A stretch of 38,630 nucleotides of DNA, taken from assembly GCA_016185125.1 (NCBI GenBank), contig JACPOC010000004.1, positions 1 to 38,630 of the forward strand, in the 5' to 3' direction. The notes beneath the pieces are model-generated. The model made no database searches and was not told where the DNA came from. It saw nothing but the letters and a program-made list of their open reading frames with translations. Shown piece by piece: positions 22,243-38,398 of the stretch; the first letter of the stretch is position 1; each line of letters begins with the position of its first letter. The stretch comes from Bacteroidota bacterium (GTDB lineage Bacteria; Bacteroidota; Bacteroidia; B-17B0; Aurantibacillaceae). The position numbers and the translations under genes are program-made.

Positions 22243-22815
22243 ATGAAAACTAAAAGCAAAACATCCGGTAAATCTTCTGAATCTATGCAGTATGGAATGG
22301 ACGAATCAACTCTAATGAAATTATTTGAAAACGAATTAAAAGATATTTATTGGGCCGAAAAAGCACTGACTAAAGCTATTCCAAAAATGATTAAAAAAGC
22401 AACATCCGATGAATTGATCGAAGCTTTAGAAAGCCATCTTGAAGAAACCGAAAATCAGGTTAAAAGAGTAGAACGCGTATTCGAATCTATTGATAAAAAA
22501 CCGATAGCTAAAAAATGCGAAGCCATGAACGGCCTCATCAAAGAAGCCGAAGAGATTATGAAAGAATCTCAGGAAGGTGCTATGCGCGATGCCGGCATTA
22601 TTACTGCCAGCCAAAAAGTTGAGCATTATGAAATTGCTTCTTACGGCACTTTGCGTACCTTTGCCCAAACACTTGGTTTAGATGAAGCAGTAACATTGCT
22701 TGATGAAATTCTTGAAGAAGAAAAATCTGCCGACGAAAAACTCACTCAGATAGCCCAAAGCACCATTAACATAATGGCAGCCATGGAAACGGAAGAGGCT
22801 GAAGAGGAAGAATAG
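22243..22815 (+). CDS. DUF892 (YciE/YciF-type) ferritin-like protein
   Basis: The 190-residue product is a four-helix ferritin-like protein of the DUF892 family, often linked to stress responses; the biochemical role is unsettled. Visible family segments are FENELKDIYWAEKAL (about 28-42), SHLEETENQVKRVERVFES (about 68-86), EHYEIASYGTLRTFA (about 126-140) and LDEILEEEKSADEKL (about 151-165), whose Glu and His residues form the presumed di-metal site. The first 18 residues are Ser/Lys-rich and the last 10 strongly acidic. It stands directly before the cyanophycin genes, separated by a terminator, so a link to them is uncertain. Confidence 0.9.
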   Translation: MKTKSKTSGKSSESMQYGMDESTLMKLFENELKDIYWAEKALTKAIPKMIKKATSDELIEALESHLEETENQVKRVERVFESIDKKPIAKKCEAMNGLIKEAEEIMKESQEGAMRDAGIITASQKVEHYEIASYGTLRTFAQTLGLDEAVTLLDEILEEEKSADEKLTQIAQSTINIMAAMETEEAEEEE

Positions 22816-22895: not shown

Positions 22896-25487
22896 ATGAA
22901 AATTTTAGAAACTAAGGTAATGCGCGGGCCAAATTATTGGTCGGTAGAACATGGCTCTCTTATTGTGCTCAAAGTGCAACTTCCTGAAGTTCCGGATTCT
23001 GAAATAAAATCTATTATACAAAAGGCAAAACAATTATTGCCTACCCTTTCCAGCAAACATCATTTAGAAGATACCAAACTTACAGGCCTTGTTCAGTTAA
23101 TAAAATACATAGCCATTGAATTGCAATGCATGGCTGAAATGGAATGTAATTATGTAAGATCTAAAGCCGGAACAAATAAAGGCGAATATTTCATAAACAT
23201 ATCTTATGTTATTGAAGAAGCCGGGCTTTTTGCCGCGCGAGCCGCTTTTGAAATAACAGAAGCACTCATCGCTAATAAATTTATTAATATTGAAGATATT
23301 GTAAAAGAACTATTGGAAATAAGAGCCCAACACAAACTCGGCCCAACCAGTTCCTATATTCTCGACGCGGTTAAAAAAAGAAAAATTCCTTTTCGCAGAT
23401 TTAATAACGGCTCTTTAATTACATTGGGCTACGGTAATAAACAGCAAAAAATACGCACCGCCGTAACCGACACTACTAGTGGCCTGGGCATTGAACTGGC
23501 AGGCGATAAAGAAGAAACAAAAAAAATTCTGGCAGAGGCTAATCTTCCCGTACCAAAAGGCATTTTGGTTTATAGCGAAGCAGGCCTGCGCGAAAGAATT
23601 CATGAAGTAAAATATCCTGTGGTATTAAAACCGCTCGATGGAAATCACGGCAGAGGAGTTACTACAAATATCAGAGATATTGACAAAGCTTTATTTGGCT
23701 TCGAAATCGCTAAAAAAATATCAAACGCAATTATTCTCGAAGAATATATTGAAGGAAATGATTACCGTTTTTTAGTTGTCAATTTTAAATTAGTGGCCGT
23801 GTCTAAACGCACACCAGCTTTTGTTATAGGCGATGGCATTTCAACCGTTCAGCAATTAGTGGATAATGAAAACAAAAACCCCGAACGCGGTACGGAAGAA
23901 AAACATGTATTGGCACTCATAAAAATTGACGCTATTACTCTTAAAATGCTTTCCGAAAAAAATCTTACAATAAATTCCATTATTCCTAAAGGCGAAGTGC
24001 TTACTTTAAAAAATACCGCTAACATAAGCGCCGGCGGAATTGCTGAAGATGTAACGGATAATATTCACCCCGAAAATATATTTATGACCGAGCATGTTGC
24101 CAAAATGTTTAACCTCAACATTTGCGGCATTGATGTTATGGCAAAGGCCGTAGATGTGCCTATTACCCGCGAAAATGGCGCTATTATTGAAGTAAACGCC
24201 GGGCCGGGCTTGCGCATGCACTCTAACCCCCAATTGGGGCCCGTGCGCGATGTAGCCTCACCCATTGTAGAAATGATGTTTCCAACAACCGCACACGCAC
24301 GCATTCCCATTGTGGCTGTAACAGGTACAAACGGAAAAACTACCACCACCAGAATTATAGCCCACCTTGCCAAACACGCCGGCTATAAGCCCGGTTTTTG
24401 TACCACCGAAGGCATTTATATTGATGGCCATTTAACTTTCGATGGCGATTGCACCGGCTCGGTAAGCGCGCAAGATGTACTCTTTGATCCCATTATAGAT
24501 TTTGCGGTAATTGAATGCGCCCGCGGAGGAATTTTAAGATCGGGGCTGGGCTTTGATGAATGCGACGTAAGCATCATTACCAATGTTTCTGAAGATCATC
24601 TTGGCCTTAAAGATATTAATACCATTGAAGAAATGGCTAAAGTAAAAAGTGTGGTGGCAAAAGCTACCTCCAAAAACGGTTATTCTATTGTAAATGCGGA
24701 TAACGATCTTTGCTACAAAATTAAAGACGATTTGGATTGCAACATTGCACTCTTCAGTACCAAATTTGATAATGAAAGAATTACAGAACATTGTAACAAT
24801 GGCGGATTAGCAGCCAGCATTGAAGATGGCTACCTTGTGGTTTATAAAGGCAGCACCAAAATACAAATAGAAACACTTGATAATATTCCTTTAACTTTTA
24901 AAGGAAAGGCAAGTTATATGATTAAAAATATTTTACCTGCCACTCTTGCCGCAATTATCAGCGGTTTTAGCGTCGATCAAATACAAAAAGGATTAAAAAC
25001 TTTTTTACCATCTCCTTTATTTACGCCCGGGCGGATGAATCTTTATAATTTCAACGGCTTTAAAGTGATGGTAGATTACGCTCATAACATGGATGGTTTT
25101 TTTGAATTGAAACGTTTTATTGATGAAGTGGAAGATTCTCCTAAAGTAGGCGTAATTGCTGTGGCGGGCGACAGAAGAGACGATGACATCAGGCACGTTG
25201 GGCTTTTGGCAGCTACCATGTTTGATAGCGTTATTATTAAACACGATAAAGATTTAAGAGGAAGAACAGCCGACAATATTTCTGACCTTTTAAAAGAAGG
25301 CATCGCGCAAATAAATAAGCCCGTGCCAACTGTTGTAATTTCTGATGAAAAAGAAGCTATTGATTATGCTTTCGCAAACGTTCAAAAAGGGTCATTTATT
25401 TTAATTTGCGCGGGTATAGTGTCCGAAACCGTTAGTTACGTAAACAAACTTCACAACATCAGCAGCTTAAGTTCACAGCTCCAATAA
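22896..25487 (+). CDS. cphA: Cyanophycin synthetase A (N-domain motif lost)
   Basis: Cyanophycin synthetase adds Asp then Arg, using ATP, to grow the poly-Asp chain with Arg side groups. The 863-residue product has three parts: N domain (1 to about 160, begins MKILETKVMRGPNYWS), ATP-grasp domain (about 210-465, loop G249NHGRG254, later AFVIGDGIST) and Mur-ligase-like domain (about 470-863, P-loop GTNGKTTT at 477-484, ECARGGILRSGLGFD, AGDRRDDD, and DYAHN). The key difference from the second copy is in the N domain. Where that one has H79-x-x-E82-H83, this protein has Q67-L-I-K70-Y71, and about 12 residues before it are missing. By family knowledge HxxEH forms a hydrolytic site that makes primers. 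It lies 25 nt upstream of an isoaspartyl peptidase gene. Confidence 0.95.
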   Translation: MKILETKVMRGPNYWSVEHGSLIVLKVQLPEVPDSEIKSIIQKAKQLLPTLSSKHHLEDTKLTGLVQLIKYIAIELQCMAEMECNYVRSKAGTNKGEYFINISYVIEEAGLFAARAAFEITEALIANKFINIEDIVKELLEIRAQHKLGPTSSYILDAVKKRKIPFRRFNNGSLITLGYGNKQQKIRTAVTDTTSGLGIELAGDKEETKKILAEANLPVPKGILVYSEAGLRERIHEVKYPVVLKPLDGNHGRGVTTNIRDIDKALFGFEIAKKISNAIILEEYIEGNDYRFLVVNFKLVAVSKRTPAFVIGDGISTVQQLVDNENKNPERGTEEKHVLALIKIDAITLKMLSEKNLTINSIIPKGEVLTLKNTANISAGGIAEDVTDNIHPENIFMTEHVAKMFNLNICGIDVMAKAVDVPITRENGAIIEVNAGPGLRMHSNPQLGPVRDVASPIVEMMFPTTAHARIPIVAVTGTNGKTTTTRIIAHLAKHAGYKPGFCTTEGIYIDGHLTFDGDCTGSVSAQDVLFDPIIDFAVIECARGGILRSGLGFDECDVSIITNVSEDHLGLKDINTIEEMAKVKSVVAKATSKNGYSIVNADNDLCYKIKDDLDCNIALFSTKFDNERITEHCNNGGLAASIEDGYLVVYKGSTKIQIETLDNIPLTFKGKASYMIKNILPATLAAIISGFSVDQIQKGLKTFLPSPLFTPGRMNLYNFNGFKVMVDYAHNMDGFFELKRFIDEVEDSPKVGVIAVAGDRRDDDIRHVGLLAATMFDSVIIKHDKDLRGRTADNISDLLKEGIAQINKPVPTVVISDEKEAIDYAFANVQKGSFILICAGIVSETVSYVNKLHNISSLSSQLQ

Positions 25488-25512
25488 CAACAGCATGATA
25501 TAACCCAAATTT

Positions 25513-26430
25513 ATGTCAAAAATTACAGTAGCAATTCATGGCGGAGCCAGAGACGAAACCGAATTTATCCGCAAAAATTTAAACGGATATAAACAAGCTT
25601 TAAAAGAATCCGCCCAAATTGCTTTTGAATTACTAAAACGCGGCAAACCTGCCCTGGATGCCGTGGAAGCGGCCATCACCTTTATGGAAGACAATATGTT
25701 GTTTAATGCGGGAAGAGGCTCAGCCATTAATTCACTGGGCTATGTAAGCATGGATTCCTCCATTATGGATGGAAAAGATCTGCGATGCGGTTCAGTGGCG
25801 CTGCTTCAAAAAGTAAAAAACCCCGTACAACTTGCACGGCTTATTTTGGAAGAAAATCACCATATTTTATTGGCCGGAGAAGGCGCCCTCAGCTATGCTA
25901 AATATAAAGGAGTAAGGCTTGAAGAAGATGCTTATTTTATCCTTCCACATCAATACGATATGTTTATGGAACGTAGAGATAAACTCACACAAAAAGAACA
26001 GGATGCACTAAAAAACCATGGCACCGTAGGCGCAGTTGCTTTAGATGCTAAAGGAAATCTGGCGGCGGCCAGCTCTACCGGCGGAACTTCCTTTAACCGA
26101 AACGGCCGCGTAGGCGATGCCGCTATGATTGGCGTGGGCTGCTACGCCAACAATAACTCCTGCGCTGTATGCGCAACCGGTGATGGGGAATTAAACATCC
26201 GCTCCATTGCATCAGGCTATGTTTCTGTTTTAATGGAACAAGGTAATATGAGCATTCAGCAAGCCTGTGATTATGTAATTCATCAAAAAAATAAAAACGC
26301 CAAAGGAGATATGGGTCTTATTGCCGTTGATCCAAAGGGAAATGTTGGAATTTCGTACAACAGCCAATTAATGCACCGCGCCTGGATAAGCTCTGATCAG
26401 GAGGTAATTGTTAAAATTCATGAGAAATAA
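25513..26430 (+). CDS. iaaA: Isoaspartyl peptidase / L-asparaginase (plant type), first copy
   Basis: Ntn-hydrolase that cleaves isoaspartyl dipeptides; with cyanophycin it would split beta-Asp-Arg into Asp and Arg. The 305-residue product shows AIHGGA near the start, LFNAGRGSAIN (about 65-75), MDSSIMDG, and the autoprocessing site HGTVGAVALD with the nucleophile T171. After cleavage the beta subunit begins there; STGGTSFNRNGRVGDAAMIG and GYYAN-like CYANN then TGDGE follow, the substrate and oxyanion-site region. It lies 25 nt after cyanophycin synthetase A, probably in one transcript. Followed by a 470-nt gap. Confidence 0.93.
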   Translation: MSKITVAIHGGARDETEFIRKNLNGYKQALKESAQIAFELLKRGKPALDAVEAAITFMEDNMLFNAGRGSAINSLGYVSMDSSIMDGKDLRCGSVALLQKVKNPVQLARLILEENHHILLAGEGALSYAKYKGVRLEEDAYFILPHQYDMFMERRDKLTQKEQDALKNHGTVGAVALDAKGNLAAASSTGGTSFNRNGRVGDAAMIGVGCYANNNSCAVCATGDGELNIRSIASGYVSVLMEQGNMSIQQACDYVIHQKNKNAKGDMGLIAVDPKGNVGISYNSQLMHRAWISSDQEVIVKIHEK

Positions 26431-26900
26431 ATACTACACCTTTGAGCCAATATTAATCGGTGCTTGTGGGTAAATTACGCATCTTGAGCAATATTTACAT
26501 CATTTAACATTCCCCAAAATTTTATAACTAATTGATTTTCAAATACCCGTTTGCTGGCACAAATCTTTAATCTCTTTATTCGAAACTAACTCTAATTTAC
26601 ATTAAAGGTAGTTGTAAAAAATTCGTAAACTAAATCATGTATGCATGTTTTTCTTTACGTGCCATCAACTAATATTGAGGGTAATTAATGAAAATTGTTA
26701 GTCGATTTTCCATTCTACAAATTGACTGTTCAAATACCGTCGGCCTTGTTAACACAAGTTCGGCGGTTTTTGATTTTAGGCCGTTCCCCACTTCTACATA
26801 ACTGTGGAAAATAAACCCGACATAAGGCAATTTTAAATCTGATTTTCAGATATTTAGTAATTGGTACAAATTTTAATTATATTAGATTAAATTCTCACAC
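26431..26900 (+). other. 470-nt non-coding gap before cyanophycin synthetase B
   Basis: No convincing gene lies here. The gap holds an intrinsic terminator (26737-26771) and a small hairpin AATCTGA/TCAGATT-like (about 26836-26853) close to the next start. No consensus -33/-7 promoter was found by eye. The 37-residue ORF at 26688-26801 runs straight through the terminator hairpin and is not supported. The length and terminator suggest that synthetase B is regulated apart from synthetase A, by its own promoter or by attenuation. Confidence 0.5.
26737..26771 (+). terminator. Intrinsic terminator or attenuator ahead of synthetase B
   Basis: Arms 26737-26749 and 26754-26766 pair over 13 bp (CCGTCGGCCTTGT with ACAAGTTCGGCGG; two G-T wobbles and one mismatch) with a 4-nt loop, followed by five T (26767-26771). 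It is about 300 nt after the isoaspartyl peptidase stop and 130 nt before the next start. Either the end of the first transcript or an attenuator in a leader. Confidence 0.7.
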
Positions 26901-29552
26901 ATGAAGATTATCAGTACTAAGGTAATGAAGGGTCCCAACTTTTGGTCAAATTATCGCAAACACATTATTATAATGAAGCTTGACCTTGAGGAACTTGAAC
27001 AATCTCCCACCAATAAAATTAAAGGTTTTTCTGAACGTATCGAACAATTAATACCTTCCATGTTCTCTCACCGCTGCTCCGAATCTCACGAAGGCGGCTT
27101 TTTTTTACGAATTAAAGAGGGCACCTGGATTGGTCACGTGGTTGAACACATTGCTCTCGAAATTCAAACCCTTGCAGGTATGGATTGCGGATACGGCAGA
27201 ACCCGCTCCGACTCTAAAGAAGGCGTTTATTTTGTGATTTTTGCTTACCATGTTGAAAAGGCGGGCTTATATGCCGCCGAAGCCGCGGTAAGAATTGCCC
27301 AGGCATTGGTGGATAACGTGCCTTATGATATTAATAAGGATATTGAAGTTTTAAAAAAACTAAAAGCAAAATACGGACTTGGCCCAAGTACGCAATCCAT
27401 CGTGGAGGAAGCTCTGGAACGCGGCATTCCCTACAAACGCCTAAATAACAGCTCTATGGTGTTATTTGGTCAGGGTATTTATCAGAAAAAAATAAGAGCC
27501 ACATTAACCAGTTCCACCAGCCACATGGGCGTTGAGATTGCTTGCGATAAAAACGAAACAAAAACCATTTTAAAATCGGCCTATATTCCAACTCCCGAAA
27601 GCGAATTGGTGTATGATGATCTGGATCTTGAATTGGCCGTGCAAAATGTTGGTTTTCCGGTAGTTATAAAACCCATCAACGGCAACCATGGCCGGGGAAT
27701 CACTATCAATATTCAAACCCTCGAACAAGCTAAAGAAGCTTTTAAATTAGCCAAAGAAATTTCAGAAGATGTTCTGGTAGAACGATATTTAGTGGGTGCC
27801 GATTTTCGTTTTTTGCTCATCAATTTTAAACTGGTTGCCGTTGCAAAACGAACGCCCGCCTTTGTTATTGGCGATGGCAAATCTACCATTAACCAATTGA
27901 TAGATGAAACCAACCTTGATCCTGCCCGCGGCGATGGCCATGAAAATATGCTCACCAAAATTAAGATTGATAAATTAACGCTGGATATACTCGCACAAAA
28001 AAATTATACGCTTGAAACTATTCCTCCACAAGGAGAAGAAGTTTTATTAAAAGATACCGCTAACATAAGCACCGGCGGAACCGCTACAGATGTTACACAT
28101 TTAGTTCATCCGGCAAATGTGTTTATGGCAGAAAGAATTTCAAAACTTTTAAACATGGATATTTGCGGCATTGATGTAATGACCGAAAATATCGAAGTTC
28201 CTTTAACCAATCAAAATGGCGGAGTTATTGAAGTAAACGCTTGTCCGGGTTTTAGAATGCACTTATCCCCCACCAATGGCAAGCCCCGCAATGTAGCGGC
28301 TCATGTGGTGGATATGCTGTATCCGCAAGGCATGCCATCACGCATTCCTTTGGTAGCGGTAACGGGTACTAACGGTAAAACTACAACCACCCGCCTTATT
28401 GCGCACATGGCTAAACAGGCCGGCCACTTGGTGGGTTATACCACCACCGATGGTACTTATATTCAGGAACATTTAATAAATACGGGCGATTGCACAGGCC
28501 CTGTGAGCGCGCAAACAGTTCTTACCGACCCAACAATTGATTTTGCAGTACTTGAATGTGCCCGCGGAGGAATTTTAAGAGCAGGTTTAGGTTTTGATAA
28601 TTGCGATATCAGTATTATTACTAATATTTCTGAAGATCATTTATCCCTTGACGGCATTGATACCCTCAGCGATATGACACGCGTAAAATCGGTAGTGGCT
28701 CACAGTACGTTTAAACATGGTTACGCTATTTTAAATGCCGATGACGAACGGGTTTTTAATTTAAATGAAGAGCTGGATTGCAACATTGCTTTGTTCAGTA
28801 TTGAACCAAATAACCAAAGAGTGGCAGAACATTGCAATAAAGGAGGCCTGGCGGTAATTCTCGACAATGGTTTTGTTACCATTTGCGCCGGGCAAACAAA
28901 AATACCGGTTGAAAAAATAAACGACATTCCTTTATCAATGGGCGGTAAGGCAGATAGTATGATTAAAAATATTCTTCCGGCAGTATTAACCGCTTATCTT
29001 AAAAATTTTACTTTAAAAAATATTCGAATAGCTCTTAAATCCTTTATTCCTTCGCCGCAATTTACTCCCGGCCGAATGAACCTGTTCCATTTCAAAGATT
29101 TTGATGTAATGATTGATTACGCCCATAACAGCGGTGGCTTTGTTGAATTAAAGAGCTTCATGGAAAAAACAATTTCTACCTGCAAAATAGGCATCATCGC
29201 CGCTGTGGGAGATCGTAGGGATGAAGATATCAGGAATGTTGGCGTTTTTGCCAGTCAAACTTTTGATGAAATAATTATCCGACACGATAAAAACCTTCGT
29301 GGCCGTACCAAAGAAGAGCTCAATACCCTGATTATGGAAGGCGTAAACTCTGTAAAAGCCAATATGCAAGTAAAAGTAATTTCCGATGAAAAAGAGGCTT
29401 TGCTTTATGCCATAAAAAATGCTCAAAAAGGTTCATTTATAACTGTATGTACCGATTGCGTACAAGAAACTATTGATTACCTTAGCAAAATGCACCAGGA
29501 AGAAATACAGAACTCAGAAACTATTAACCAAACATTATTAAAAGCTTCTTAG
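26901..29552 (+). CDS. cphA: Cyanophycin synthetase B (complete motif set)
   Basis: The 883-residue product is a full-length cyanophycin synthetase. N domain (1 to about 165) contains H79-V-V-E82-H83 in GTWIGHVVEHIALEIQTLAG and GYGRTRSDSKEGVY; the HxxEH residue numbers coincide with those of the described primer-generating site in cyanobacterial-type CphA1. ATP-grasp (about 220-475) has G261NHGRG and AFVIGDGKST. Mur-ligase-like domain (about 485-883) has GTNGKTTT at 489-496, ECARGGILRAGLGFD, GDRRDED and DYAHN. It is about half identical to the first copy over most of its length, differing chiefly in the N domain. The cyanophycinase gene starts 6 nt after its stop, so these two are one operon. 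Confidence 0.96.
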   Translation: MKIISTKVMKGPNFWSNYRKHIIIMKLDLEELEQSPTNKIKGFSERIEQLIPSMFSHRCSESHEGGFFLRIKEGTWIGHVVEHIALEIQTLAGMDCGYGRTRSDSKEGVYFVIFAYHVEKAGLYAAEAAVRIAQALVDNVPYDINKDIEVLKKLKAKYGLGPSTQSIVEEALERGIPYKRLNNSSMVLFGQGIYQKKIRATLTSSTSHMGVEIACDKNETKTILKSAYIPTPESELVYDDLDLELAVQNVGFPVVIKPINGNHGRGITINIQTLEQAKEAFKLAKEISEDVLVERYLVGADFRFLLINFKLVAVAKRTPAFVIGDGKSTINQLIDETNLDPARGDGHENMLTKIKIDKLTLDILAQKNYTLETIPPQGEEVLLKDTANISTGGTATDVTHLVHPANVFMAERISKLLNMDICGIDVMTENIEVPLTNQNGGVIEVNACPGFRMHLSPTNGKPRNVAAHVVDMLYPQGMPSRIPLVAVTGTNGKTTTTRLIAHMAKQAGHLVGYTTTDGTYIQEHLINTGDCTGPVSAQTVLTDPTIDFAVLECARGGILRAGLGFDNCDISIITNISEDHLSLDGIDTLSDMTRVKSVVAHSTFKHGYAILNADDERVFNLNEELDCNIALFSIEPNNQRVAEHCNKGGLAVILDNGFVTICAGQTKIPVEKINDIPLSMGGKADSMIKNILPAVLTAYLKNFTLKNIRIALKSFIPSPQFTPGRMNLFHFKDFDVMIDYAHNSGGFVELKSFMEKTISTCKIGIIAAVGDRRDEDIRNVGVFASQTFDEIIIRHDKNLRGRTKEELNTLIMEGVNSVKANMQVKVISDEKEALLYAIKNAQKGSFITVCTDCVQETIDYLSKMHQEEIQNSETINQTLLKAS

Positions 29553-29558
29553 TTTTTT

Positions 29559-30452
29559 ATGACACCAAAAGGAAAGCTGTTAATTATAGGAGGAGCCGAA
29601 GATAAAGGTCCCATACGGATCAGGCCTCAGATCAAATCTAAGAACAAGGATTTTGTGGATTATGAGATCCTAACCAATCTTATTCCCCCTTCTACCTCAA
29701 AATTTAACCGCATTGAAATTATAACCACTGCCTCGCAACAACCTTTTAAAACCGGAAACATGTACATCCGCTCTTTTAAAAAAGCGGGTTATCATAACGT
29801 TAGTCACATGAGTATTGAAAATAAGGAAGAGCTTAAAAACCCTTCGCTTATTACGCGCATCGAAAACGCTGATACCGTATTCTTCAGTGGCGGAGATCAA
29901 TTTCGCCTTTCAACCATTATTGCAGGCTCTGAATTAATGCAGGTAATTATGAAGCGCTACATGAAAGATGAAAATTTTTTATTGGCCGGAACCAGCGCGG
30001 GAGCAATGGCAATGGGCCGGCTCATGATTTATCATGCAGAAAATAACGAAGCCATGCTAAAAGGTCACGTAAAAATTACCTATGGCCTTGAAGTACTGGA
30101 TAGTTGTATTGTAGATACTCACTTTGTAAAACGAGGCCGTTTCGGCAGGTTGGCTCAGGCAGTAGCCATGAACCCGCTTTCATTAGGCATTGGTATTGGG
30201 GAAGATACAGCCCTTTTAATTACTAAAGGAAACGATGCTACTTGTATTGGTTCGGGAATGGTTATTATTATTGATGGAACTAAAATACGTTACAACAGCG
30301 TAAATGTGGTGGAAGATGATTATCCCTTAGGAATTGAAGGTTTAAAAGTGCACATGCTGGCAAGAGGCAACGGTTTTTTACTGCATGAAAAAAAATACGT
30401 TCCAAACGCGGAAGTATTTTTAGCCAAGAGCTTAGTAAATGCCAATAACTAA
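29559..30452 (+). CDS. cphB: Cyanophycinase, peptidase family S51
   Basis: An intracellular serine exopeptidase that cuts cyanophycin to beta-Asp-Arg dipeptides. The 297-residue product has no signal peptide. Catalytic residues are clear: nucleophile S146 in GTSAGAMAMG, H188 in VDTHFVKRGRFGRL and E215 in GIGEDTAL. The S-H and H-E spacings (42 and 27 residues) equal those of the Synechocystis enzyme triad (S132, H174, E201). FFSGGDQFRL holds the substrate Gln. It starts 6 nt after synthetase B. Its last 21 bp overlap the tail of the convergent isoaspartyl peptidase gene. Confidence 0.96.
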   Translation: MTPKGKLLIIGGAEDKGPIRIRPQIKSKNKDFVDYEILTNLIPPSTSKFNRIEIITTASQQPFKTGNMYIRSFKKAGYHNVSHMSIENKEELKNPSLITRIENADTVFFSGGDQFRLSTIIAGSELMQVIMKRYMKDENFLLAGTSAGAMAMGRLMIYHAENNEAMLKGHVKITYGLEVLDSCIVDTHFVKRGRFGRLAQAVAMNPLSLGIGIGEDTALLITKGNDATCIGSGMVIIIDGTKIRYNSVNVVEDDYPLGIEGLKVHMLARGNGFLLHEKKYVPNAEVFLAKSLVNANN

Positions 30453-31388
30453 ATCATCATCATTTCTTTTGCATGCACGGTACATTCCTTCGGTGTTATA
30501 AGGCATTTCAATATTGCCTAAAGCATCAATAGCAATTAAACCGCCTTCGCCGCCAATTTTTACAAGTTTATCGTGTACCACTAAATCGCAGGCAGCTTTT
30601 AAAGAAAGCCCTTTGTATTCCATTAAACACGAAATATCATAAGCCACCACAGCACGCATAAAAAACTCTCCGTGCCCGGTGCATGAAATGGCACAGGTAT
30701 TATTATTAGCGTAAGTTCCCGCGCCAATAATAGGACTATCCCCTATTCTACCATGTTTTTTATTGGTCATTCCCCCGGTAGAAGTTGCGGCGGCTACATT
30801 GCCATAAACATCCAAAGCAACTGCGCCCACGGTTCCAAACTTTTTATCCTCCAAATCTGTTTTACTTTCAATTTCTTTTAAGGAGGTGTGATCAAGAACG
30901 ACTGTATCTGCTTGTCGTGCTTTTTGTAATTGATCATAACGGTATTGAACAAAAAAATAATCATCCGATTCAACAGGTATACCCATTTCTTTTGCAAAGT
31001 TTACAGCTCCGCCTCCTGATAGAAAAACATGCTCCGTATGCTCCATAACGGCACGCGCTAGGGTAATAGGGTTTTTAACGTTATATACCCCGCTGATAGC
31101 GCCGGCTTTTAAAGTTTTGCCATCCATAATGGAAGCGTCCATCTCATTTCTGCCTTCGTGTGTAAACACAGAACCTTTGCCTGCATTGAACAAGGGATTA
31201 TCCTCTAATTGCTTTACAACGGCTTCTACGGCTTCTAAGGCAAGGCCATGCTTTAACAGAATAGCTTCACCAACCAAAACAGCTTCTTTAAGAGCGCTGG
31301 TGTATAAGGCTTCCTTTTCGGCACTCATTAAACTTTTTAAAATAGTTCCTGCGCCTCCGTGCATGGCAATGCCAATTTTCTTTTTCAT
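30432..31388 (-). CDS. iaaA: Isoaspartyl peptidase / L-asparaginase (plant type), second copy
   Basis: A second Ntn-hydrolase of the same family, 318 residues. It has AMHGGAGTIL, LFNAGKGSVF, MDASIMDG, and the autoprocessing site KFGTVGAVALDV with nucleophile T186; then STGGMTNKKHGRIGDSPIIG and TGHGEFFMR. It differs from the first copy in the linker before the Thr and in TGHGE instead of TGDGE, so the two are diverged paralogues, possibly of different specificity. No signal peptide. It is convergent with cyanophycinase (21-bp overlap) and 36 nt after the HTTM gene on the same strand. Confidence 0.93.
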   Translation of the reverse strand: MKKKIGIAMHGGAGTILKSLMSAEKEALYTSALKEAVLVGEAILLKHGLALEAVEAVVKQLEDNPLFNAGKGSVFTHEGRNEMDASIMDGKTLKAGAISGVYNVKNPITLARAVMEHTEHVFLSGGGAVNFAKEMGIPVESDDYFFVQYRYDQLQKARQADTVVLDHTSLKEIESKTDLEDKKFGTVGAVALDVYGNVAAATSTGGMTNKKHGRIGDSPIIGAGTYANNNTCAISCTGHGEFFMRAVVAYDISCLMEYKGLSLKAACDLVVHDKLVKIGGEGGLIAIDALGNIEMPYNTEGMYRACKRNDDDLVIGIY

Positions 31389-33634: not shown

Positions 33635-33642
33635 TACATTTG
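33635..33642 (+). promoter_or_regulatory. Candidate -7 box ahead of the secreted S51 gene
   Basis: TACATTTG matches the Bacteroidota -7 box TAnnTTTG; no clear TTG lies 19-20 nt upstream. It ends 6 nt before the ATG at 33649, so a transcript from it would be nearly leaderless. Weak evidence. Confidence 0.3.
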
Positions 33643-33648
33643 ATTTTT

Positions 33649-34938
33649 ATGCGTGGTTTTTTATTTTTTTATTTATTGATAAACTGCGGCTTCCTGCAAG
33701 CGCAAACCTATACCAGTTATTTGGTTGGAGATACTTCTAACGTAACTAAAACCACAGAATACCGAATATGTTTACTTGGAGGAGCCACCGAGGATGATAA
33801 TGCCATGAAATGGTTTTTGAACGGCAGCGGTGGCGGGGATATTGTAGTAATTCGCGTTACCGGTACCGCCGGCTATAATAATTACTTTTATTCTTCATTG
33901 GGAATACCCGTTAATTCTGTTGAAACCCTTGTTATTCCCAGTGTTGCAGCTGCAAATGATCCTTATGTAAGACGTCGCTTAAGGGAAGCGGAAGCCCTAT
34001 TCATTGCCGGTGGAAATCAGAATGACTATATTAGTTATTGGAAAAACACCGCTGTGGATAGTGCTTTAAACTATCTTATTAATATTAAAAAAACACCATT
34101 TGGCGGAACAAGCGCAGGCATGGCCATTCAGGGGCAGGCCTATTATAGTGCAGCTGCAGGTTCAATCACTTCTGCTGCGGCGCTTGCTGATCCATACGCC
34201 AACGCGGTTACCATTGGAAATAACGATTTTATACATAATCAATTATTAAAACGTGTTATTACAGATACCCACTACGACAATCCTGACAGGCGCAGCAGGC
34301 ATACCACTTTTTTAGCGAGATTATTTCAGGATAGTACAAAAGCTTTTTACGGCATTGCATGTGATGAATATACAGCAGTTTGTTTTGATAGTACGGGTAT
34401 TGCAAAAGTATTTGGAGGATATCCAACTTATGATGACAACGCTTATTTTATTCAGCCCAACTGCTTACTGCCAAACATCCCCGAAAATTGTACGGCTTCG
34501 CAAGCTTTAACTTGGAACAGATCAGGCGAAGCTTTAAAAGTTTATGCTATTAAAGGAACTGCAACAGGTGCCGGAAGTTTTGATCTAAAGAACTGGCAAA
34601 GCCCCAATGCAACCGGAGGACTATGGCAAAATTGGTTTGTACTAAATGGAAATTTTTCTGCAACCAGTAATGCAAACCCTCTTGCCTGCATTACAACTGA
34701 TCTTAAAAGTAACCTGCTGGAAGGCCGTCAAGAAATTTTTTTTCCTAACCCTGCAAACCATATAGTATATTTTAATACCAAGCCTGACGAAATAAAAATT
34801 AAAGATATAACAGGAAAAACAGTTGCCAATTTTTTTAATTGTAATCAAATATCTATTGAAGAATTAAATGCAGGGCTTTATTTTATTGAATTAAAATTTA
34901 AAAGCAGTATAATCATAAAAAAAATAGTGATAAACTAA
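33649..34938 (+). CDS. Secreted cyanophycinase-like S51 peptidase with T9SS sorting tail
   Basis: The ATG at 33649 gives 429 residues (a TTG at 33640 would add three). A signal peptide (MRGFLFFYLLINCGFLQAQ) leads to an S51 domain (about 35-300): IAGGNQNDYI in place of GGDQ, nucleophile S155 in GGTSAGMAIQG, H208 in ITDTHYDNPDRRSR, and E240 in GIACDEYTAV. The triad is complete, with wider spacing than in the intracellular enzyme. The last 70 residues (FFPNPANHIVYF, IKDITGKTVANF, LNAGLYFIELKF, ending KKIVIN) are a type A T9SS sorting domain, so the protein should cross the outer membrane. By its family it may degrade cyanophycin or related peptides outside the cell; substrate is inferred. Confidence 0.9.
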   Translation: MRGFLFFYLLINCGFLQAQTYTSYLVGDTSNVTKTTEYRICLLGGATEDDNAMKWFLNGSGGGDIVVIRVTGTAGYNNYFYSSLGIPVNSVETLVIPSVAAANDPYVRRRLREAEALFIAGGNQNDYISYWKNTAVDSALNYLINIKKTPFGGTSAGMAIQGQAYYSAAAGSITSAAALADPYANAVTIGNNDFIHNQLLKRVITDTHYDNPDRRSRHTTFLARLFQDSTKAFYGIACDEYTAVCFDSTGIAKVFGGYPTYDDNAYFIQPNCLLPNIPENCTASQALTWNRSGEALKVYAIKGTATGAGSFDLKNWQSPNATGGLWQNWFVLNGNFSATSNANPLACITTDLKSNLLEGRQEIFFPNPANHIVYFNTKPDEIKIKDITGKTVANFFNCNQISIEELNAGLYFIELKFKSSIIIKKIVIN

Positions 34939-37142: not shown

Positions 37143-37234
37143 ACAATAAATCAATATTTAACACATTTGAACTTAATTTTTCACTTACTATATATTATAG
37201 CAAGCACCCGCCAAATTCTCAATTAACTTTGATT

Positions 37235-38398
37235 ATGCTTAAGCCTAAGGTTCTCCTTTCTAAAGGAATTCATAAAGAGTGCGAAATAATAAAAATTGAA
37301 TTTGAAAAAAATTCGCTTGTATTAGAACGTCTTAGGCAAATGCGTGGATTGCGGTGGAGCAAAACTTTGGCCTGTTGGTATGTTCCCTTAAATAATTGTC
37401 CGCATGGAGCTTTATATAATTTATTGAAAGATATTGCCTTGGTTAGTTTTAGTAAAGTAAACAAGCCTTTTTATGAAAATAGAGAAACACTCGCTCCTCT
37501 TAAAAATTACGAACAACCCAAGGAAGCAGATTGTAAGGAAGTTACACACAAGCTTACACCGGAGCATTATTTAAAACTCGAAAATTTTAAAATGTGGCTT
37601 CAAAGCAAGCGTTACAGTGCCAACACAATTGCAACCTATATTCAAGCTCTTAGTTTATTTCTGAGATATTTTTCTGAAAAAACTGTTGAAGCGATAGACA
37701 ATACAGACTTAATAAGCTTTAATAATAATTATATTTTACAGCATAAATTATCTTCTTCCTTTCAGAACCAAGTAGTAAATGCGGTTAAACTTTTTTTTTC
37801 AATTGTTGAAAATAAAAAAATACAGCCCCAATTAATTCACCGCCCAAAACGTGCAAAAGTGTTACCTAATGTGTTAAGCAAAGAAGAAGTTAAAGCCTTG
37901 CTGGCCGCTCCTTTAAATATAAAACACAAAACCATGCTAAGTTTAATTTATGCCTGTGGTTTACGATGTGGGGAATTAATAAGATTAACGCCCGCCTCGG
38001 TAGACGCTAACCGGCATCTTTTAATAATTAAACAATCTAAAGGCCGTAAAGACCGTATAATACCTTTAAGCGATAAAATATTGATGTTGTTGCGTAACTA
38101 TTATCAAATCTACAAACCAAAAACCTATCTTTTTGAAGGGCAAAAAGTAGGAGAAATGTATGATGAACGCAGTTTGCAGCAGGTTTTAAAGAATAGTGTG
38201 TTTAAAGCAAAAATACAAAAGCCGGTAACATTGCATTGGCTGAGGCACAGTTATGCAACTCACTTATTGGAAAACGGAACAGATTTGAGGTACATACAAG
38301 AGATATTGGGCCATAGCAGCAGCCGCACTACCGAAATTTACACCCATGTAAGTAATAAAAGCATTCAAAAAATTGTATCACCATTTGATTATTTGTAA
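37235..38398 (+). CDS. Tyrosine recombinase with an unusual N-terminal domain
   Basis: Site-specific DNA recombinase of the phage-integrase family. The ATG at 37235 gives 387 residues (a TTG at 37229 adds two). The catalytic domain (about 210-387) is intact: R244 (ACGLRCGEL), K269 (SKGRKDRIIPL), H334-x-x-R337 (LHWLRHSYATH), H360 (LGHSSSRTT) and Y369 (EIYTHVS). Residues about 110-190 form the SAM-like core-binding domain (YSANTIATYIQALSLFLRYF). The first 65 or so residues are extra: LRQMRGLRWSKTLACWYVPL looks like the HARP-type motif of annealing helicases. No other mobile-element gene is seen, and the region after it holds repeats and hairpins, so it may be a solo integrase at the edge of an element. 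Confidence 0.93.
   Translation: MLKPKVLLSKGIHKECEIIKIEFEKNSLVLERLRQMRGLRWSKTLACWYVPLNNCPHGALYNLLKDIALVSFSKVNKPFYENRETLAPLKNYEQPKEADCKEVTHKLTPEHYLKLENFKMWLQSKRYSANTIATYIQALSLFLRYFSEKTVEAIDNTDLISFNNNYILQHKLSSSFQNQVVNAVKLFFSIVENKKIQPQLIHRPKRAKVLPNVLSKEEVKALLAAPLNIKHKTMLSLIYACGLRCGELIRLTPASVDANRHLLIIKQSKGRKDRIIPLSDKILMLLRNYYQIYKPKTYLFEGQKVGEMYDERSLQQVLKNSVFKAKIQKPVTLHWLRHSYATHLLENGTDLRYIQEILGHSSSRTTEIYTHVSNKSIQKIVSPFDYL

Follow-up and report, generated by a model that had tools for sequence, protein, structure and literature searches.

Two neighbouring cyanophycin synthetase genes in a Bacteroidota genome, one with and one without the N-domain primer-making site

The window analysed here is a stretch of 38,630 nucleotides, bases 1-38630 of contig C7 of a 3.34 Mb Bacteroidota genome (completeness 99.9%). 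It carries a cluster for the nitrogen-storage polymer cyanophycin, in which DUF892, synthetase A, IaaA1, synthetase B and CphB follow one another on the + strand and IaaA2 lies on the opposite strand. The gene for the DUF892 (PF05974) protein (22243..22815) lies directly 5' of that for synthetase A (22896..25487; 863 aa), and IaaA1, of the isoaspartyl peptidase/asparaginase family (PF01112), starts 25 bases past A (25513..26430). After a gap of 470 bases comes synthetase B (26901..29552; 883 aa) and, 6 bases past it, the cyanophycinase CphB (29559..30452), which scored 203 bits against TIGR02069 (cut-off 126.6). IaaA2 (30432..31388, - strand) is an isoaspartyl peptidase with a match to NF007589 of 362 bits, under the cut-off of 567 for that model. 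Judged by gene spacing, DUF892, A and IaaA1 likely form one unit, and B and CphB a separate one. A search of five intergenic gaps for the Bacteroidetes-type -7 box (TAnnTTTG) gave no match on the + strand. Further along the + strand, 33640..34938 encodes a cyanophycinase-like Peptidase S51 protein that scored below the TIGR02069 cut-off and, from its T9SS sorting tail, is probably secreted; a phage-type integrase (37229..38398, +) lies at the right end of the window.

Both synthetases were assigned over their full length to CphA1 with the model TIGR02068 (NCBIfam; curated cut-off 850), A with 1010.4 bits and B with 1202.2 bits. They are 50% identical, and no further full CphA gene turned up in the genome; two weaker matches on another contig (25 and 31%) cover the Mur part only. 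The primer-making motif of the CphA1 N domain is Cx19HxxEH (Sharon et al., 2022; PMC9262961). Residues 1-142 of B align in exact register with SuCphA1 (PDB 7lg5), and C59, H79, E82 and H83 are all there, so that B has the whole motif in the numbering of SuCphA1 (7lg5/7txv). The N domain of B comprises residues 1-160 (26901..27380, +), with the codon of Cys59, the third metal ligand, at 27075..27077 (+) and HVVEH (H79-H83) at 27135..27149 (+). A preliminary description of this DNA had named H79, E82 and H83 of B as the site, which the alignment bore out, and had left Cys59, the fourth ligand of the motif, unmentioned.

In the N domain of A (residues 1-148; 23339 being its last base on the + strand from 22896) all four motif residues are missing. 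The segment aligned to HxxEH reads QLIKY (Q67-Y71; 23094..23108, +), with Q67, K70 and Y71 at the motif positions as had been described, and Cys59 is gone. A deletion of about 12 preceding residues had also been noted; the total of 12 stands, and it is made up of two gaps rather than one stretch, the first of 3 residues around residue 30 and the second of 9, which takes out the loop that bears Cys59. All four residues were present in 82 of the 99 CphA proteins aligned and in none of the eight full-length proteins of the A clade (defined below), and the asymmetry between A and B is therefore not due to chance. By its motif, B classes with the primer-independent CphA1 enzymes whereas A does not; having no motif residue, A classes with primer-dependent CphA1, as represented by TmCphA1.

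The ligase sites were intact in both proteins, as previously stated for the ATP-grasp and Mur-ligase motifs. The phosphate loop of the G domain, GNHGRG, was located at residues 249-254 of A (23640..23657, +) and 261-266 of B (27681..27698, +), and the Mur P-loop, GTNGKTTTT, at residues 477-485 of A (24324..24350, +) and 489-497 of B (28365..28391, +). The alignment was further checked at 18 G and M residues named in the available text of Miyakawa et al. 2022 (PMC9427784) or Sharon et al. 2022 (PMC9262961), and all 18 were kept in A and in B (K220, K261, H267, R309, R323, N394, S396, E450, G456, R458, K499, T500, T522, E558, D585, H586, R731 and H748). Cyanobacterial CphA2 resembles A in having no N-domain motif (PMC9262961). 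According to the available text of PMC10206079, CphA2 has a single active site and works with β-Asp-Arg dipeptides, whereas A has a complete Mur site. Neither A nor B was accepted as a CphA2, in line with the earlier description, since GTNGKTTTT and the catalytic M residues are retained in both. B agreed with SuCphA1 at 20 of 22 G and M positions checked, differing at F692 (S in B) and A755 (E in B; TeCphA1 numbering); it further differs from SuCphA1 in having T at W672 and in adjoining a second synthetase. A resembles the primer-dependent TmCphA1 (7lgn) and Acinetobacter baylyi (7lgm) enzymes in lacking the N-domain site and keeping the G and M sites, and it shares with TmCphA1 a shortened Cys-loop region; unlike them, it falls within the Bacteroidota class II enzymes, near an intact paralogue.

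Orthologues of A were searched for in 87 genomes of the family of the window (f1), 395 genomes of the class and 36 genomes of a second family (f21). Three further f1 genomes, all of the genus of the window, carry an orthologue at 71-79% identity, and the class sample and f21 together yielded four more (55-56%). The N-domain site is absent from all eight full-length A proteins and from a shorter ninth relative (in genome G470). To keep the trait from influencing the grouping, a tree was built from the G and M domains without the N domain; its root was not inferred, and 23 of the 99 rows, of class I, were omitted. In this tree the nine site-less proteins, from two Bacteroidota families, form one clade (SH-aLRT 100) within B-type class II, the placement of the G470 protein being less sure because of its long branch. 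A tree that included the N domain gave the same grouping for the five A proteins sampled at that time. Since the A clade sits inside a group with intact sites, loss and not gain is the simple reading, and a single loss at the base of the clade would be the simplest account of these sequences. On this evidence A and B are paralogous CphA1s, with A placed within B-type class II in a clade that has lost the N-domain metal site throughout. The suggestion that the loss is unique to this genome was ruled out by the nine of nine clade members in two families without the site, and the phylogenetic check proposed at the outset thus showed a clade-wide loss. In A of genome G023, His267 of the G loop is replaced by Gln. 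The G470 protein (L092, G470:C10; 724 aa) is truncated and has neither the N-domain site nor the Mur P-loop; it retains the G residues, which gives this Bacteroidota protein a layout like that of CphA2. Because of the His267 substitution in G023 and the lost Mur site in G470, some members of the A clade may not be full elongases.

The divergence of A is concentrated in its N domain. Between A orthologues, identity was 52-65% (f1) and 43-74% (f21) in the N domain, 72-86% and 82-92% in G, and 72-83% and 78-94% in M. In the same genomes, the N domain of the B orthologues (71-87% in f1, 79-91% in f21) was about as conserved as G (68-83% and 87-93%) and M (68-84% and 80-93%). The pN/pS values, to be read with synonymous sites mostly saturated, were 0.25-0.47 in A vs 0.11-0.23 in B for the N domain, and 0.07-0.22 in the A clade vs 0.08-0.26 in B for G+M. 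In the least saturated pair (G429-G476), dN/dS was 0.159 (N) and 0.043 (G+M) for A, and 0.069 and 0.049 for B. At positions conserved in at least 95% of the 82 intact proteins, all eight A proteins kept the residue at 12/50 in N, 78/96 in G and 90/100 in M, and all eight had lost it at 16, 8 and 0, respectively. By these measures, relaxed selection in A is mainly confined to the N domain, with G and M as constrained as in B, and A of the window is under purifying selection.

That A is a decaying duplicate is thus extremely improbable. Its N domain is indeed shortened and diverging fast, and the cyanophycinase that neighbours A elsewhere has been lost from this genome; against this, the frame is open, the catalytic residues are kept, the G+M values match those of B and the clade spans two families. 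Decay, which had been offered as grounds for abandoning the proposed division of work, was accordingly rejected. The predicted model of A (mean pLDDT 83.7) retains the N-domain fold, with its strands, a helix (64-79) at the place of HxxEH and the long helix that follows all present. Among solved structures the model comes closest to CphA1s (7wae, with Z 46.9 and an rmsd of 6.1 over 694; 7txv, Z 43.7; 7lgn, Z 40.7). By analogy with the findings of Sharon et al. 2022 (PMC9262961), the N domain of A probably remains in use for binding polymer and as a structural element.

The state of the site was compared with copy number in the 236 genomes of the three samples with a CphA match, the best two candidates per genome being scored in the class sample. 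The N domain was read in 197 genomes (157 + 40); the 39 unread, several of them with cut or partial genes, were 33 of 162 in the class sample, G001, G027, G057, G066 and G076 in f1, and G480 in f21. Duplicate loci of one gene were dropped from alignment counts and trees, as was L037 (G005:C7), the second copy of G005, a class II CphA interrupted by in-frame stop codon(s) and lacking its N terminus; G005 also has an intact class I copy. The G142 gene is split over two frames and its motif piece was counted as intact, as was L171, and G278 (L249), with unread bases in the loop and Cys and HxxEH present, was set apart. One copy was read in 171 genomes, of which 167 had it intact, one was G278 and three had lost the site; 'one copy' here means one copy read, as a second, unread or incomplete one exists in G005, G070 and G077 at least. 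More than one copy was read in 26 genomes (13 all intact, 13 mixed, none all lost), and each of the 13 with a site-less copy thus also has an intact one. All nine A-clade genomes have an intact B-type copy, and an intact partner of A is in this sense conserved.

The site-less copies numbered 20: nine of the A clade, seven of a second, long-branched group here labelled class IV, one in G116 and three standing alone. Four of the seven class IV copies occur in A-bearing genomes (G013, G030, G429 and G478). His267 of the G loop, the mutation of which to Ala inactivates the G domain of SuCphA1 (PMC9262961), is Gln in five of the seven class IV proteins, as in A of G023. The three lone site-less copies belong to one genus, g62, and account for all three g62 genomes read; Cys59 is gone from them and E82 is Y or Q, with both histidines kept, and a search of the full genomes found no second CphA. 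A rule that a site-less copy always has an intact partner was rejected on these three cases, and since g62 has a site-less CphA alone, a partner is not always needed. By Fisher's test the association had p ~3e-10 by genome, with the genome with unread bases counted against the trend and the genomes being related to one another. The counts are not independent, since the 13 mixed genomes go back to two or three separate losses within Bacteroidota. With origins judged by eye, p was 0.008 if G116 is its own origin (3 vs 1) and 0.046 if it is joined to class IV as in the tree (2 vs 1); before the last 40 genomes were added the values were 0.015 and 0.07. Across these sequences, loss of the site alongside an intact copy is a trend and not a law.

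A search of plasmids brought up a further pair, in Deinococcus deserti VCD115. The CphA of plasmid 2 has the motif; that of plasmid 1, 70% identical to it, has A, A, E and R at the motif positions, leaving Glu alone, and agrees with its partner at the 16 G and M residues checked. From these sequences the two are an asymmetric pair of separate origin. The motif is present in the plasmid cphA genes of D. taeanensis, D. ficus and QL22 and in KNUC1210. Other arrangements were also encountered. On Deinococcus plasmids, L211, L214 and L209 are CphA relatives annotated 'Mur ligase family' in which the N-domain site and the G domain are degenerate and most M residues are kept, in L211 and L214 all seven that were checked; the KNUC1210 gene is split into two annotated genes, and the layout is the mirror image of that of CphA2. 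Open frames of 544-601 aa that match CphA in the M domain only (43-47% identity) were found at G409:C4, G446:C33, G208:C15 and G304:C262, and a similar match in Legionella adelaidensis extends over two genes, one 'Mur ligase family' and one cyanophycinase. A plasmid of Chryseobacterium sp. SNU WT5 carries a CphA without the motif (L206), closest to class IV (46-52%); its surroundings include gntA, by annotation the gene of a pre-guanitoxin N-hydroxylase, as well as a urea carboxylase-associated gene.

The surroundings of A and B were compared in the relatives. The f1 loci run DUF892, A, (second cyanophycinase), IaaA1, B, CphB, IaaA2, and the f21 loci run B, IaaA2, DUF892, A, second cyanophycinase. 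One contig holds both synthetases, at most a few genes apart, in seven of the eight full-length loci; in G030 each sits on a contig of its own that stops close by. DUF892 lies directly 5' of A in all eight, and the DUF892 of the window is 85-92% identical to its f1 counterparts, above the identity of A itself. It also occurs near a site-less class IV gene in G478, and since unlinked DUF892 genes were found in genomes with B only, DUF892 is not specific to A; a single literature search gave no paper linking DUF892 with cyanophycin. The canonical class I CphA, present in most relatives, was not found in the four A-bearing f1 genomes. In f21, G471 and G478 have it besides A and B, and in G471, G478 and G470 it is an intact copy alongside the B-type copy, so that in these three genomes it could also prime A.

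A second cyanophycinase follows A in six of the eight full-length loci, as an open frame in five and frameshifted in G013. It is missing after A in the window (at 25488-25512) and was not found in G030, and no remnant was detected between A and B (best tblastn E value 2.2 in the window and 2.7 in G030). These genes, together with IaaA1, which is linked to A in the four f1 loci, would suit an A that makes or edits a chemically different polymer, with another side chain, served by a cyanophycinase and an isoaspartyl peptidase dedicated to it. At seven positions the eight A proteins all share a residue that differs from that of at least 90% of the intact enzymes; these positions point the same way, and three of them adjoin known substrate or Mg residues (Su 397 beside S396, Su 523 beside T522 and Su 214 beside E215). 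Every checked residue for Asp recognition and catalysis is however kept in A of the window, and A persists where its cyanophycinase is absent (window, G030) or frameshifted (G013), and we consider a different polymer very unlikely.

How a site-less enzyme can be primed has been studied with TmCphA1, which requires a primer of at least (β-Asp-Arg)-Asp and cannot use the β-Asp-Arg dipeptide (PMC9262961). The N domain of SuCphA1 added in trans renders TmCphA1 primer-independent, and a SuCphA1 whose G and M sites are dead can prime it as well; within SuCphA1, priming in cis is somewhat better than in trans, and the E82Q substitution abolishes primer-independent synthesis without greatly affecting primed synthesis (PMC9262961). 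About 1 in 5 CphA1s is without the N-domain site, and leftover chains or other molecules of the cell were proposed, though not tested there, as primers in vivo (Sharon et al., 2022; PMC9262961). According to the available text of PMC10206079, CphB-type enzymes release β-Asp-Arg dipeptides; since TmCphA1 cannot use these, degradation would be a poor source of primers save for leftover chains.

From its residues, A is very probably a primer-dependent elongating enzyme, and B very probably the only CphA of this genome with a primer-making site. By analogy with TmCphA1, A would in all likelihood be unable to cut cyanophycin and would need a ready-made primer no smaller than (β-Asp-Arg)-Asp; it may depend on B for this in the cell, or the two may form mixed oligomers. 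The explanation that accounts best for the whole, and which we consider somewhat more probable than not, is that B starts chains and A elongates on ready-made primer. The N-domain site of B would make primers, with which new chains start, and A, without a cutting site, would lengthen ready-made chains through its G and M sites. The tight gene linkage, and an intact copy that is never absent from the A-bearing genomes read, favour B as the source of these primers. Through regulation of the two likely gene units, the cell could adjust how many chains are started relative to how far they are elongated. Separate units would also permit A and B to be made at different times, which counts against the explanation. 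The cyanophycinase that A has of its own in six of eight loci (one frameshifted) counts against a shared pathway and fits two parallel modules. The preliminary description had proposed this division of work; the kept ligase sites of A and the clade-wide loss support it, and the lone copies of g62 stand against a partner being always needed.

The same g62 genomes, with TmCphA1 and the proposal of remnant chains (PMC9262961), speak for an A that is primer-dependent and independent of B, restarting from leftover granule chains under conditions of its own, with B a separately regulated isoenzyme. The 470-base gap 5' of B and the DUF892 linkage in eight of eight full-length loci also agree with it. 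An intact copy is nevertheless retained in all nine A-clade genomes, and in the four f1 genomes, where class I was not found, that copy is B; we therefore hold this alternative to be unlikely, while giving it real weight.

Mixed oligomers, in which A would use the N-domain site of B, are compatible with priming by B and elongation by A. Mixed dimers of SuCphA1 mutants stay functional when the active N site is on the other protomer, although without primer their activity is somewhat reduced, and W672 is a tetramer-interface residue, the change of which to Ala makes SuCphA1 dimeric (PMC9262961). The Su672 position is W in 75 of the 82 intact proteins; in f1 it is T, T, T and S in A and T in all four B proteins, and in f21 it is W in all eight, so that A and B share T/S in one family and W in the other. 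This was noticed after the fact, and is given little weight since there is no clear general excess of family-specific sharing: positions that follow the family numbered 7 vs 6 crossed by majority and 3 vs 1 by unanimity, and a general co-evolution of A and B was rejected on the 7 vs 6 count. The two proteins are, moreover, just 50% identical. On balance, mixed oligomers appear improbable. A wider proposal, that an obligate pair of starter and elongase arose several times in at least two phyla (Bacteroidota and Deinococcota), possibly as mixed oligomers, with the number and length of chains controlled separately, is put forward as a tentative one, which we think may well be wrong.

CphA1, its N-domain site, the absence of the site from some enzymes and trans-priming were already known, and as priming between enzymes has been published (PMC9262961), the principle is not new. 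The available text of PMC5178258 describes adjacent CphA1 and CphA2 genes in Betaproteobacteria (Sideroxydans), which resemble the window in having two cyanophycin synthetase genes side by side; the state of the N-domain site is not discussed in that text, and the likeness is one of gene adjacency. Sharon et al. 2022 (PMC9262961) do not speak of a paralog, two cphA genes or a second CphA in their main text, and nothing on such pairs was found in the available text of Sharon and Schmeing 2023 (PMC10206079). A search by title and abstract, with most of the subscription literature outside its scope, found no paper on paired site-bearing and site-less CphA1s. The conserved natural pairing of the two, as read from these genomes, would be the new element. 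The pair also demonstrates that loss of the N-domain hydrolase need not involve the ligase domains, with relaxed selection limited to the N domain. A natural, conserved pair offers a test of a primer source other than leftover chains, and may be a way of uncoupling the starting of chains from their elongation in cyanophycin production.
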